From an uncultured Saprospiraceae bacterium (GTDB taxonomy: Bacteria > Bacteroidota > Bacteroidia > Chitinophagales > Saprospiraceae): a DNA stretch of 64,000 nucleotides. Made by a program: the position numbers and the translations under genes. The stretch lies in assembly GCA_937950315.1 (NCBI GenBank), contig CALFDU010000001.1, forward strand, positions 1 to 64,000, read 5' to 3'. Shown here one piece after another: positions 16,040 through 34,181 of this stretch. Positions within the stretch are counted from its first letter, which is position 1, and each line of letters begins with the position of its first letter. A model generated the notes under the pieces. It had not been told where the DNA came from, ran no database searches, and saw nothing but the letters and a program-made list of their open reading frames with translations.

Positions 16040-17083
16040 TTATTTGTTTTTCTTTTTGGTATCGTCGACCATAGATAAAATTGTCAATGGCAAATGTAAG
16101 ATTCCTTTTCCTGAATTTCTCATCATTACCACTGCAGTTTTGTTTTCTTTGTTCATACATACAAATACCGAATGGATGGAGGTGGTGCCAGAAAAACTAT
16201 AAATTTCTCTATTTCGTTTTTGTTTGATGATATACCACGGAGCTTCGTGGTATAAGTTTTTTGAAATTTTTATTGATTCAAATTCTGATTGCTTTTCAAA
16301 CTCAGATCGAACATAATTGGTGAGATCGATTACATTCATACTCAATCCTTCACTCGGAGCAAAGCCAGGAAAATCCCACGGGTATCCTAATTGACCCGCT
16401 TTGTCAAAGCCAAATGACAATGAATCAGCCCGATCGCTACACCGAATACTTGGAAATTGTGCTTGATATTTCTCTTTAATTAATTCACAATAATCTTTTT
16501 CTTCGATGCGCTCAGTCAGTAACCCAAGCAAAGCATAGTTTAAATTACCATAATTAAATTCATTAAGATTTTCCGGTTGGTATAACTCAGAATATCTATT
16601 CAGCTCAGGCACGATCAATGAGTCAGGATAAGATTCATATGGATTGTCTGGGTTTTTATTATGCCGACCAAAGAAGTATGGATCTTTGGGTAGGTTGGAT
16701 CTGTGAGTGATCAATTGATCAAAGGTAATTTCTCCGTATTCTTTATGTAGCTCAAGATGATTGGAGATTTTATCCGATGTGCTTAAGTTTTTTTTTGCTA
16801 GTGCTGCGTTGATAAGTTCCGCGGTGAAAATTTTTGAAACGCTGCCTACTTGAAAATTGATAAGACTATCGTGTATCATATTTCCTACCTTGAAAATAAA
16901 AGTAGAGTCTCCATCAATCACACCAAGCCACAAACCTTCTCCTTCTTCAAAATGGAGAGAGTAATCAAATTCTAAAATCTTTTCAACCTCGTTTTTTAGA
17001 TTGGCAAGATCCTGAGCCATGAGATCATGGCTGATGAAGAGAGTAGAACAAAAGAAAATTATGAGTACAAAGTGGATGCGCAT
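16040..17083 (-). CDS. Serine hydrolase, beta-lactamase/DD-peptidase family
   Basis: The 347-residue protein has a signal peptide ('FVLIIFFCSTLFISHDLMAQ') and a penicillin-binding-protein/class C beta-lactamase-like fold. SxxK is 'SVSK' (S81, K84), and the second motif is 'YGNLNY' near residue 176 (YxN). The third element is weak, around 'FSGTTSIHSVFVCM', where relatives show HTG. It is probably a periplasmic or secreted esterase or peptidase, not necessarily a beta-lactamase. Start ATG at 17083 gives a good signal peptide, while a TTG two codons upstream adds nothing. The stop lies 3 bases from the SUI1 start. A terminator for the small gene further upstream lies just before this gene. Confidence 0.82.
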   Translation of the reverse strand: MRIHFVLIIFFCSTLFISHDLMAQDLANLKNEVEKILEFDYSLHFEEGEGLWLGVIDGDSTFIFKVGNMIHDSLINFQVGSVSKIFTAELINAALAKKNLSTSDKISNHLELHKEYGEITFDQLITHRSNLPKDPYFFGRHNKNPDNPYESYPDSLIVPELNRYSELYQPENLNEFNYGNLNYALLGLLTERIEEKDYCELIKEKYQAQFPSIRCSDRADSLSFGFDKAGQLGYPWDFPGFAPSEGLSMNVIDLTNYVRSEFEKQSEFESIKISKNLYHEAPWYIIKQKRNREIYSFSGTTSIHSVFVCMNKENKTAVVMMRNSGKGILHLPLTILSMVDDTKKKNK

Positions 17084-30310: not shown

Positions 30311-31045
30311 TTACAAAGAATTCCACTTGGTTAACTGATTTTTTAGTGCCCTAAGATCTTTAGGGTATTCACATTCTACAGTTATTTTCTTCTTTGATTC
30401 TGGATGAGAAAATGTGATACTTTGCGCATGCAGCGTCTGTCTACTCACCAATGGCCTTTCAACTGTATTTTTCTTTATATTAAATTTCTTGCGGTTTTTG
30501 ATCTTAGATATTTTAAAAGCAGATCTTGTCCCATACCGATCATCGATCATCAATGCATGTCCTGCATGCTGAAGATGTATTCTTATTTGATGTTGTCTTC
30601 CCGTAGTTGGTTTACATTCAAGCAAGGAAAATCCCTTCCATCTCTCAATCAACCGAAAAGTTGTCATAGATTCTTTCCCAACTTTATGCACAAACACCTG
30701 TCCTTGCTTAGTACTAGATAAAGCAATCGGTGCATCTATAGTGAAGCTTTCCTCAATAGGGCAGCCATCTACAAAAGCATGATACGTTTTATCAACCTTC
30801 CTATTTTCAAATTGCTCATTCAGAAATTTATGGGCCTGTTGTGTCTTTGCAACAACCATGACGCCTGATGTGTCTCTGTCCAACCTATGAACGATATAGA
30901 TTTCTTCTCTGTAGCCTTGCAGACTTTTTAAGATGTTTTGCTTGCTCTCGTCAAATCGATCAGGAATACTCGACCAACCTGCAGGTTTATCGATAACCAA
31001 TATGCTATCATCTTCGTGAAGGATGGTCCAGCGATTCTTGCTCAT
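30311..31045 (-). CDS. RluA-family RNA pseudouridine synthase
   Basis: The 244-residue enzyme isomerises uridine in RNA to pseudouridine. Catalytic Asp lies in 'HRLDRDTSGVMVVAKT' (about residues 53-68). 'PAGWSSIPDRF' and 'LLECKPTTGRQHQIRIHLQHAGH' (about 148-170) are the other RluA features. There is no N-terminal S4 domain, so it resembles RluA/TruC-like single-domain enzymes. The exact rRNA or tRNA target is unknown. Its ATG overlaps the stop of the RibF-GT fusion by 4 bases (ATGA), so the two are co-transcribed. Confidence 0.92.
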   Translation of the reverse strand: MSKNRWTILHEDDSILVIDKPAGWSSIPDRFDESKQNILKSLQGYREEIYIVHRLDRDTSGVMVVAKTQQAHKFLNEQFENRKVDKTYHAFVDGCPIEESFTIDAPIALSSTKQGQVFVHKVGKESMTTFRLIERWKGFSLLECKPTTGRQHQIRIHLQHAGHALMIDDRYGTRSAFKISKIKNRKKFNIKKNTVERPLVSRQTLHAQSITFSHPESKKKITVECEYPKDLRALKNQLTKWNSL

Positions 31046-33021
31046 ATAATATCGCTGAATTTACTCTTACCACCGACAAAGTACTTCCAAATAATAGATC
31101 CTTTCAATCTACCAGATTTTCTTTCTGGGCCTTTTCTCATCGCCGCTATGAATTTTTTTTCTTGCCTCTTACGTCTGAATATTTTAAAGACTCTTACATA
31201 TAATGACAAATGTGCTTTTACGATAGACCAAGTATGAATAGGCTTGCCAGTCAATAAAAATTTAACTCCCGCCACACCGTCCAAAACAAAACGTATCGGA
31301 AGCAGCCATAATAATTTGCCGTAAGGCTCATTCTTGATAATGGTAGTAAGATTATTTCTGAAATTGAGGTAGGTCTTGTTAGGACTCTGGTAAGAAAGCG
31401 AACCACCTCCAAAGTGATAAACTTTTGCAGAAGGAACGACCATACACTTCAATCCAGCACGCTTCATTCTCCAGCACAAATCAATCTCCTCTTGGTGTGC
31501 AAAAAATGAATTATCAAAGCCTCCAAGACCTACAAAAGTATCTTTTCTTAAAACCATAGCCGCACCTGATGTCCAGAAAACTTCCTGCTCGTCATCATAC
31601 TGACCTTCATCTTTTTCTACTTTATCAAACACACGACCTCTGCAAAACGGATAACCCAATGAATCAATGTATCCTCCTGAAGCACCGGCATATTCAAACT
31701 CATCTTGATTTTCCAGGGAGAGAATTTTAGGCATCACCGCACCAATACTAGGATCTGATTTTAGTTTGTCCAATAAAGGATCGAGCCAATTTTCCGTAAC
31801 CAATACATCCGAATTTAACAAAACAATGTATTGTTCGTCTAAGATTTTTATGCCTCGATTATATCCTTCTGCAAAACCATAATTCTTTGTCAGTTCGATT
31901 AGATTTATTTCAGGAAACCATTCAGTTAAGATTTGACTTGTATCATCTTGACTGTGATTATCAATCACATGAATCTTTGCATTGGAACCCGTAAATTCTC
32001 CTATAACAGGAAGGTATGATTGTAGAAATTCTGAATTATTATAACTCAAGATAGCCACAGCACATTCCGGTTTTTCAAATACTTGAACTTGATTGTTTAG
32101 AATCTCTAATGTTCTAATCTTGTCCAACTTTAATTGGTTGGTTAACAACTCAAGTGAATCAAATTTCTGATCTCCTCTTATAAATTCTATGAATTCTAAA
32201 GTGAGATCTTTACTGTAAATATTTGAATTGAAATCGAATATATTTACTTCAATCGTTTTTTCTAAATTATTATCTATGGTTGGTCGTCGACCAATATAAA
32301 CCATACAGTCTCCTTCAACTCCATCTACCCTCATTCGTGCTGCATATATCCCTTCAACTGGAACAATCTTTTTTTCATCTTTGACAAGCAGATTGGCTGT
32401 GGGAAACCCAATCTTGGTTCCTAGTTTATCTCCATGAACAACTTCTCCTGTTAACTGGTAATTATATCCAAGCAATAGGCCAGCTTCCTGCATGGCGCCT
32501 GTATTGATGGCATTTCTAATTTTGGTCGAACTAATCGTTATCTCTTCTAGTTCTTGTTTCTCGACTTTTTCTAGTTTGAAATGGCCTTCAGCCTCATACA
32601 TTTTTAGCAAGCTGAAATCTCCTTGTCTGTTTAAACCAAATTTATGATCATATCCGATTACCAAACAACTAGGATTAAAATTCGTAATGATGAATTTTTC
32701 TACATATTCCTTGGCTGACATTTGTGAAAACTCAAAAGTAAAGGGAACCACGACCACATGATCTATGCCCAATTCTTCAAAAAGAGCCAGTTTTTCATCA
32801 AGAGTGCTAAGTAGCTTAAGAGATTTGTCTTTGGGGTAGATAATGGACCGAGGATGCGGATCAAAAGTAACGATGATACTTTCTCCTTTTAGCTCTTTGG
32901 CAAGAGCTATGATTTTTTTTGCAAGCTTTTTATGACCGTGATGTACACCGTCAAAAGTGCCTAACGTAATAACTGCATTTTTAAATGCAGGCAATTGTTC
33001 AATGGACTTGTGAATCTTCAT
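31042..33021 (-). CDS. ribF: Fusion of riboflavin kinase/FAD synthetase with a GT2 glycosyltransferase
   Basis: One uninterrupted 659-codon frame contains a complete RibF and then a complete glycosyltransferase. Residues 1-311 have the FAD-synthetase nucleotidyl site ('LGTFDGVHHGHKKL', 'SSTKIR'). The riboflavin-kinase site 'GTKIGFPTAN' follows near 203-212. Residues from about 320 start a GT2 domain 'CAVAILSYNN', with 'VIDNHSQDD', DXD-like 'VLLNSDVLVTENWL', 'WTSGAAMVLRK' and 'DLCWRMKRAG'. A basic C-terminus ends the protein. RibF normally ends at about residue 310. Codon 311 is CAA, one base from TAA, so loss of a stop codon (T to C) could have made the fusion. An assembly error is the alternative. 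The RibF half should make FMN and FAD in the cytoplasm. Confidence 0.85.
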   Translation of the reverse strand: MKIHKSIEQLPAFKNAVITLGTFDGVHHGHKKLAKKIIALAKELKGESIIVTFDPHPRSIIYPKDKSLKLLSTLDEKLALFEELGIDHVVVVPFTFEFSQMSAKEYVEKFIITNFNPSCLVIGYDHKFGLNRQGDFSLLKMYEAEGHFKLEKVEKQELEEITISSTKIRNAINTGAMQEAGLLLGYNYQLTGEVVHGDKLGTKIGFPTANLLVKDEKKIVPVEGIYAARMRVDGVEGDCMVYIGRRPTIDNNLEKTIEVNIFDFNSNIYSKDLTLEFIEFIRGDQKFDSLELLTNQLKLDKIRTLEILNNQVQVFEKPECAVAILSYNNSEFLQSYLPVIGEFTGSNAKIHVIDNHSQDDTSQILTEWFPEINLIELTKNYGFAEGYNRGIKILDEQYIVLLNSDVLVTENWLDPLLDKLKSDPSIGAVMPKILSLENQDEFEYAGASGGYIDSLGYPFCRGRVFDKVEKDEGQYDDEQEVFWTSGAAMVLRKDTFVGLGGFDNSFFAHQEEIDLCWRMKRAGLKCMVVPSAKVYHFGGGSLSYQSPNKTYLNFRNNLTTIIKNEPYGKLLWLLPIRFVLDGVAGVKFLLTGKPIHTWSIVKAHLSLYVRVFKIFRRKRQEKKFIAAMRKGPERKSGRLKGSIIWKYFVGGKSKFSDII

Positions 33022-33107: not shown

Positions 33108-34181
33108 ATGGATAATAACCTTATTGTTGGAATATTGCAGGAAATCATCGATCCTGGTACTGGTCAAGACCTTGTCAGTATGAGGAAGATTTCAGATCTC
33201 AAAATTACCGGGAACCAGGTAAATATGGCTGTAACAACCAAAACAAAGGACACAACCGTCAGATCTGAGCTATATGGACAGATAGTAAACAACATAAAAG
33301 CCAAGTTTCCTGATGCGCAAGTAAACATTCATTTTAAAGATGCGGATGGTTCGGTAACACCTTTACCTCAAGTGAAGAATATTATTGCCGTTGCCAGTGG
33401 AAAAGGAGGAGTAGGGAAGTCTACAGTGAGTGTTAATCTGGCTATGAGTCTTAAGGATTTAGGCTATAAAGTCGGCATTTTGGACGCAGATTTATATGGT
33501 CCTTCTATCCCGACTATGCTTGGTTTACAAGGACAAAGACCCAAAGTGACCAAATTGTACGGTAGAAATGTAATTGTGCCGATTGAAAAGGATGGTCTGG
33601 AAGTCATTTCCATCGGTTTTATTGTTGAACCAGAGCAAGCAGTTGTGCTTCGTGGGCCTAGACTAGGGGGTATAATCAAACAGTTTATCAATGAATGTGT
33701 TTGGTCCCAGCTGGATTACTTGGTCATTGATTTGCCACCAGGAACAGGCGATATTCAATTGACCATGGTACAAACGATCCCAGTAACCGGAGTAGTAATG
33801 GTAACAACACCGCAAGAAGTAGCAGTTATCGACGCCGTTAAGGCCATGAATATGTTCTTACTTGAAAATGTAAATGTTCCAATACTCGGGGTTATTGAGA
33901 ATATGTCTTGGTTTACACCAAAGGAGCTACCAGACAACCGATATCACTTGTTTGGGAGCGGGGGTGGAGAAAAATTGGCAAAGTTATCCAAGACACCTTT
34001 GTTAGGCCAAGTTCCGTTAATAATGTCTGCAAGAGAAGGAGGGGATGAAGGAAAACCTGCTGTTTCACAGGAAGGACACGCTTTTCAAGCCATCTTTTCT
34101 AGGTTGTCGAAGAAATTGGTTCAGCAGGTTTCGATGAGAAATGAAGTGTTTGGTCCTACAACTATTGTCAGAACAAGCTAA
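33108..34181 (+). CDS. Mrp/NBP35-type iron-sulfur carrier ATPase
   Basis: The 357-residue protein combines an N-terminal MIP18/DUF59 domain (about 1-85) with a ParA-like P-loop ATPase. The deviant Walker A is 'ASGKGGVGKST' (K99, K104), followed by 'ILDADLYGPSIPTMLG'. 'LVIDLPPGTGDIQLT' and 'VTTPQEVAVIDAVKAM' are further signatures. Such proteins carry Fe-S clusters to apo-proteins. The C-terminal CxxC typical of many Mrp proteins is not visible, as also in related Bacteroidota forms. A NifU-domain gene follows 31 bases later, which fits an Fe-S role. Confidence 0.9.
   Translation: MDNNLIVGILQEIIDPGTGQDLVSMRKISDLKITGNQVNMAVTTKTKDTTVRSELYGQIVNNIKAKFPDAQVNIHFKDADGSVTPLPQVKNIIAVASGKGGVGKSTVSVNLAMSLKDLGYKVGILDADLYGPSIPTMLGLQGQRPKVTKLYGRNVIVPIEKDGLEVISIGFIVEPEQAVVLRGPRLGGIIKQFINECVWSQLDYLVIDLPPGTGDIQLTMVQTIPVTGVVMVTTPQEVAVIDAVKAMNMFLLENVNVPILGVIENMSWFTPKELPDNRYHLFGSGGGEKLAKLSKTPLLGQVPLIMSAREGGDEGKPAVSQEGHAFQAIFSRLSKKLVQQVSMRNEVFGPTTIVRTS

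Follow-up and report, generated by a model that had tools for sequence, protein, structure and literature searches.

A ribF-glycosyltransferase fusion with a changeable junction in the Saprospiraceae

In the stretch of DNA analysed here (the window; 64,000 nucleotides from an uncultured Saprospiraceae bacterium), a single reading frame on the minus strand leads from a bifunctional riboflavin kinase/FAD synthetase (RibF) directly into a GT2 glycosyltransferase. Is this joint frame an accident of one genome or an arrangement of the family, and how might the two genes have come to be joined?

The ribF-GT2 frame and its two enzymes

The frame (31042..33021, minus strand) starts with ATG, comprises 659 codons plus a stop, has no internal stops, and is matched over its full length by stop-free frames in relatives. 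Three Pfam domains in it score above their curated cut-offs, bearing out the original prediction that a full RibF and a full GT2 share one frame. The RibF half consists of a complete FAD synthetase (FMN adenylyltransferase) domain at residues 14-167 (32521..32982, minus strand; PF06574, 2.4e-47, 161 bits) followed by a complete riboflavin kinase domain at residues 184-307 (32101..32472, minus strand; PF01687, 1.2e-37, 129 bits), which is the order found in RibF. Seven NCBIfam RibF models (PRK05627 and TIGR00083) end at residues 303-311 of the fusion, in agreement with the earlier statement that RibF normally ends near residue 310, and NF004160, NF004162 and TIGR00083 are above cut-off for this half. 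Alignment of 17 fused homologs revealed that FAD synthetase residues D24, G25, H27, H30, H56, P57, R58, S164, S165 and R169 and kinase residues P207, T208, A209, N210 and E258 are invariant (17/17); these are taken to be the motif residues of the two domains. Bifunctional RibF (PDB 4uzf, 2x0k and 1mrz) matches the window's RibF half in both domains and in their order, length and conserved residues. The PRK05627/TIGR00083 models of known RibF are 290-326 positions long, whereas in the window GT2 continues in frame. The kinase domain of the fusion is the only one found in the window's own genome (95.65% complete), and the RibF half is predicted to be the cell's only detected riboflavin kinase/FAD synthetase.

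The GT2 domain occupies residues 320-659 (31045..32064, minus strand) and is supported by PF00535 (9.7e-19) and a structure model; the Glycos_transf_2 match itself covers residues 322-433 and scores 68.3 bits against a cut-off of 23.3. Residues N403, D405, E511, E512 and D514 are invariant in all 17 fused homologs, and the columns matching the GT2 acidic residues are invariant in 34 of 34 sequences of a second alignment. We take these five to be DxD-like and ED motifs, the metal-binding and catalytic acidic residues. A model of residues 316-659 alone has a pLDDT of 91 and its Foldseek matches are glycosyltransferases, closest to the polypeptide GalNAc-transferases (TMq 0.57 for GalNAc-T2, ~20% identity). 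Polypeptide GalNAc-transferases, GlfT2 and chondroitin synthase are the best fold or profile matches of the domain, but identity is ~20%, the match spans only part of a longer target, and nothing firm follows on donor or acceptor. The model supports a glycosyltransferase fold rather than any particular substrate, and the surface-glycan role given to the enzyme in the original prediction is therefore only one possibility.

Profile, structure and fold searches did not find a characterised close relative of the GT2, and the two other GT2-like matches in its own genome are distant (28-29% identity). Stand-alone GT2 proteins of similar length and 41-53% identity are present in other Bacteroidota (L050-L112; Flavobacterium, Chryseobacterium, Bacteroidales and others), and judging by these relatives the GT2 is of a kind widespread in Bacteroidota. 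The stand-alone GT2 is a free gene elsewhere, whereas in the family of the window it sits behind or inside ribF. Among 63 loci, the free gene has a holA-like neighbour in 17 and an acyltransferase-like neighbour in 10 (names read from sequence); across these loci the neighbours vary and none settles the role of the GT2. Excerpts of a review place the O-glycan core genes of Bacteroidota elsewhere in the genome and do not name them (PMC12871550). That the GT2 has a role in this core is speculation, and no paper linking the two was found in the open-licence PMC literature.

Between the two enzymes lies the linker VQVFEKPE (residues 312-319; 32065..32088, minus strand). It contains no in-frame ATG, and the first ATG after it is at residue 430, so the GT2 has no ATG start of its own in the window. 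A separate ATG start for GT2 was considered and rejected, as none is found near the linker. An in-frame ATG is kept in the linker of 22 of 162 fused loci, and retained starts are therefore a minority. Linkers of the 162 fused loci differ in sequence as well as in length, which ranges from 5 to 75 residues with a median of 14; unusually long examples are L253 (~75 residues) and L254 (~39 residues). In the AlphaFold model of the whole window protein (pLDDT 85, pTM 0.54), the last RibF helix spans residues 290-315 and is followed at residue 320 by the first strand of GT2. The eight linker codons had been regarded as a former intergenic spacer, a view at odds with the range of linker lengths and with the continuation of the modelled RibF helix through residue 315. 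The variable linker and the pTM of 0.54 despite a pLDDT of 85 fit loosely tethered domains, and a fixed RibF/GT2 interface would also be compatible with this pTM, given 17 sequences.

Downstream of the fusion, the start of an rluA-family pseudouridine synthase gene (30311..31045, minus strand; profile matches) overlaps the stop codon of the ribF-GT2 frame by 4 nt, and a downstream frame overlaps by 4 nt at L003, L004, L005, L013, L015 and L017 as well. From this overlap it is plausible that ribF-GT2 and rluA share one message. On the other side, ribF adjoins a divergent Mrp-like P-loop ATPase gene (33108..34181, plus strand), a name read from sequence; this gene neighbours many of the fused and split loci examined, though not every one.

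Spread of the fusion and history of the junction

We searched 398 genomes of the family, taken as Saprospiraceae, for the fusion. A match at E<=1e-60 was present in 361, and the 37 genomes without one include the genus-mates G001 and G002. Of the 361 matched genomes, 285 (own genome included) keep the frame open over the junction, which answers the call of the original prediction for a search for RibF-GT2 fusions in related genomes. Other fused members of the family are 42-76% identical to the window protein, three genus-mates (76, 60 and 58% identity) carry the fusion, and by hand count the fusion is present in ~89 of 110 genera with a match. Because the same open frame recurs across the family, it is neither chance nor an assembly slip. 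Most relatives are draft genomes, and each species is represented once. Outside the family, no match spanning both domains was found in 396 genomes of the order, and RibF and GT2 are at separate loci in all 11 order-level outgroup genomes. Assignment of the family to the Saprospiraceae follows the named records that carry the fusion, most of which belong there; they include Neolewinella persica and Portibacter marinus, and the latter has a row on the tree identical to that of G099. A paper on the fusion was not found in the open-licence PMC literature.

Internal stops were sought in the 291 genomes with a single-stretch match (150 + 63 + 77 + 1) and found in six (G040, G041, G147, G209, G233 and G321). 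The remaining 70 genomes were searched again and their classes counted by hand: 49 carry both genes next to each other on the same strand, three are open across the junction after all (G402, G405 and G409, at L253, L254 and L139), and ten show one piece or a fragment. In seven more the pieces are separated or fall on different contigs, and those of them that lie at contig ends are uninformative. Outside the 285 genomes, the genes are adjacent but split in 55 of 76 matched genomes (hand count). They lie ~1.4 kb apart in G118 and are kept apart in G075 and G095.

At the 42 split loci, where RibF and GT2 are within 300 nt of each other, GT2 is out of frame with RibF in 37 and in frame in 5. Start and stop overlap in 14 of these loci, an ATG or GTG is 0-60 nt away in 11, the gap exceeds 60 nt in 6, and the last 11 have no ATG or GTG near GT2, with a TTG in 7 of them. 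Some split relatives keep the same flanking genes. With GT2 mostly out of the RibF frame, loss of a stop alone could rarely have joined the genes, and an indel would be needed too.

To follow the junction through the family we used a 150-row tree: 93 rows are fused, 43 are split neighbours, 3 were scored as separate and 11 belong to the outgroup. The row of G400, where both pieces are at contig ends and reflect a contig break, was removed from the tree counts. Split neighbours make up 43 of 138 family rows and several deep lineages are split. By parsimony the fused state changes 16 times on the FastTree and short IQ-TREE trees alike, with 4 (FastTree) or 9 (IQ-TREE) changes forced by strong branches; when G400 is scored separate, the values are 17 changes with 8 forced (FastTree) and 16 with 7 (IQ-TREE). 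The number of forced changes depends on the tree. On a 43-row subset chosen after the tree was known, the AU test rejected one fused clade (p 8.7e-7), which speaks against a single origin. Joining or splitting of the pair seems to have happened several times, and the fusion is, judging from its distribution, far older than the window genome. Its derivation from formerly separate genes, part of the original prediction, agrees with the split neighbours that survive in relatives and with the separate loci of the 11 outgroup genomes.

Poly-A runs at the junction

A run of A9-A11 is found at the junction in 30 of 204 distinct loci (25/162 fused, 5/42 split). Runs of at least nine A number 31 in 16.5 kb of junction, compared to 1 in 390 kb coding for the RibF and GT2 domains. 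The 459 kb of flanks contain 11, a rate ~79 times lower than in junctions; runs of at least nine T occur once in the junctions. In the 61 kb of intergenic DNA, defined as lying outside any frame of 90 codons, A-runs of this length are ~115 times rarer, a rough ratio that comes from a single run. At a GC content of 50% or more, 9 of 45 loci have such a junction run. From linker amino acids and gene codon use we expected 9.6 fused loci with a run of at least nine A, versus 25 of 162 seen (maximum 17 in 300 draws), and for loci of at least 45% GC we expected 2.6 versus 10 of 63 seen (maximum 6 in 300 draws). The runs start at residues 309-322 in RibF numbering, past the kinase domain, and on a FastTree tree with long-branch warnings their presence changes 18 times, 14 of these forced by strong branches. 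The longest A-run of the window junction is A5, below the ~8-9 expected of a programmed slippage gene, and slippage is therefore claimed only for the relatives with A-runs. The only A or T run of at least nine in the window is a T9 at 16788.

In 5 of 5 split loci with a run of at least nine A, a single extra A, which has the effect of a -1 frameshift, brings RibF and GT2 into one frame. An ATG or GTG near GT2 is present in none of these 5 loci versus 31 of the 37 without a run (Fisher p 5e-4, a test that overstates independence because the six A-run split genomes fall in only three genera, g17, g78 and g87, four of them in one). Three of the five loci are from one genus and two (L142 and L144) have a TTG. 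At a truncated locus, L143 (G331), the contig begins inside the junction, A10 precedes the stop and one added A opens the frame into GT2; the closest codon that might start GT2 is a GTG within its first strand. One genus has A10 at the end of RibF with GT2 in the -1 frame (L142/L235 in G174, L144/L236 in G347, L146/L234 in G082 and L143 in G331), and this A10 is a candidate recoding site. Both the A10 and the split frame are kept between G174 and G347, at a dS of 0.98 for RibF and 0.90 for GT2 and a GT2 dN of 0.084. Purifying selection on GT2 persists at loci where the gene is out of frame and has no ATG or GTG start. Early stops in the shifted frames of fused loci were given no weight: after removal of one A they occur in 19 of 25 loci with at least nine A versus 52 of 119 with at most six, and after addition of one A in 56% versus 43%.

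Runs of this length are found at frame transitions in other genes. In excerpts of the reports, C. rodentium tssM1 carries A11 ahead of a stop, with extra A's bringing its missing domain into frame (PMC4256274), and the slippage run of Thermus dnaX is A9 (PMC3711429). The RibF-GT2 relatives with A-runs share A9-A11 at the transition with these two and with two-ORF dnaX genes (A10), and, as in slippage genes, one added A restores the second frame. As far as these excerpts go, slippage in tssM1 and dnaX is shown or inferred inside one protein, whereas in RibF-GT2 it would join two unrelated enzymes, in some lineages only. Among the matches listed from the open-licence PMC literature, no paper on slippage at the RibF-GT2 gene was found.

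Readings of the changeable junction

The best reading of these data is a tolerated, co-translated two-enzyme fusion with an unusually changeable junction. We think it quite probable that a single polypeptide carries two intact enzymes, RibF and GT2, on a short variable linker, the two most likely working independently, and that the junction changes repeatedly; we infer that the window gene is translated as one chain and that both domains are active. The GT2 gene would have come to lie directly behind ribF in an ancestor inside the family, and the junction would since have switched repeatedly among three states: split neighbours, about a third of which have a stop that overlaps the next start; fusion in frame; and, in some lineages, an A9-A11 run whose slippage would yield RibF by itself as well as RibF-GT2. 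A ribosome that makes GT2 would, in most of these states, have only just finished RibF. Coupling GT2 to RibF might bring some benefit. It is not universal, given the gaps of more than 60 nt, the GT2 genes with no ATG or GTG, and the separated genes of G075, G095 and G118; given the repeated state changes, fusion as such may be nearly neutral.

The simplest alternative, and the one originally predicted, is that this genome alone has recently lost a stop at codon 311, or contains a sequencing error there. Codon 311 (32089-32091) is indeed CAA, one transition from TAA, and split relatives exist, but the same junction is open in most matched family genomes, the genus-mates included, the residue aligned with Q311 varies among fused homologs, and GT2 is in the RibF frame at so few split loci that we consider this explanation very improbable and reject it on the spread of the fusion and the out-of-frame split loci. 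For the relatives with A-runs, three further explanations have to be weighed. Recoding by RNA polymerase slippage or -1 ribosomal frameshifting would yield RibF and RibF-GT2 from one gene whichever frame the DNA holds, and we regard it as rather more probable than not among these relatives; in the split lineages with A-runs, recoding is likely from the sequences. It is favoured by the concentration of A-runs, but not T-runs, at the junction, including in loci of high GC content, by their excess over expectation and repeated changes of state, and by the split loci, where one added A opens the frame (L143 included) and the A10 persists in G174 and G347 at a low GT2 dN. Against it, the window junction does not go beyond A5, the run is absent from 174 of 204 loci, the TTG codons of L142 and L144 might start GT2 (as might the GTG of L143), the A-run split genomes cluster in few genera, and homopolymer errors are possible in draft genomes.

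Part of the excess in low-GC genomes may also be explained by relaxed avoidance of AAA-AAA-AAA, which leads to a reading that we hold to be doubtful, though deserving consideration: that the runs are neutral by-products of a tolerant, Lys-rich linker and replication slippage, with no recoding. Lys is common in linkers, and at low GC all-AAA triplets make up 7 of 12 KKK runs in linkers versus 0 of 22 in domains, so relaxed avoidance alone would raise the linker count. This reading sits poorly with the rarity of such runs in flanks and intergenic DNA, with an excess that persists when amino acids and codon use are fixed, above all at a GC content of at least 45%, and with the purifying selection on an out-of-frame GT2. 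Homopolymers in glycosyltransferase genes are a known type of switch, and DNA slippage at the poly-A could turn GT2 on and off while RibF stays on. The position of the run after the kinase domain and the flipping of fused and split states on the tree would suit such phase variation. We consider it unlikely: 25 of the 30 loci with a run of at least nine A are in the fused frame, rather than about one third, the four genomes G082, G174, G331 and G347 share A10 and one split arrangement at a dS near or above 1 where measured, and most loci lack a run altogether.

Returning to the changeable fusion junction, a broader claim, that it is a family-wide hot spot tying GT2 translation to RibF interchangeably by overlap, fusion or recurrent A9-A11 slippage, seems to us only slightly favoured. 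If true, nature would here have repeatedly made a gene fusion, undone it and bypassed it by recoding. A cofactor enzyme is joined to an unrelated glycosyltransferase across most sampled genera of a family, and the same gene pair in fused, overlapping, spaced and apparently recoded forms would provide a replicated natural experiment on gene fusion, as well as a natural test of poly-A slippage as a substitute for it. Genome pipelines may annotate the split forms with A-runs as broken genes or as two genes. Finally, the junctions of L010 and L014 have A9 followed by TGAGC; in frame they read through an ATG as a fusion, and removal of one A places a stop over that ATG.
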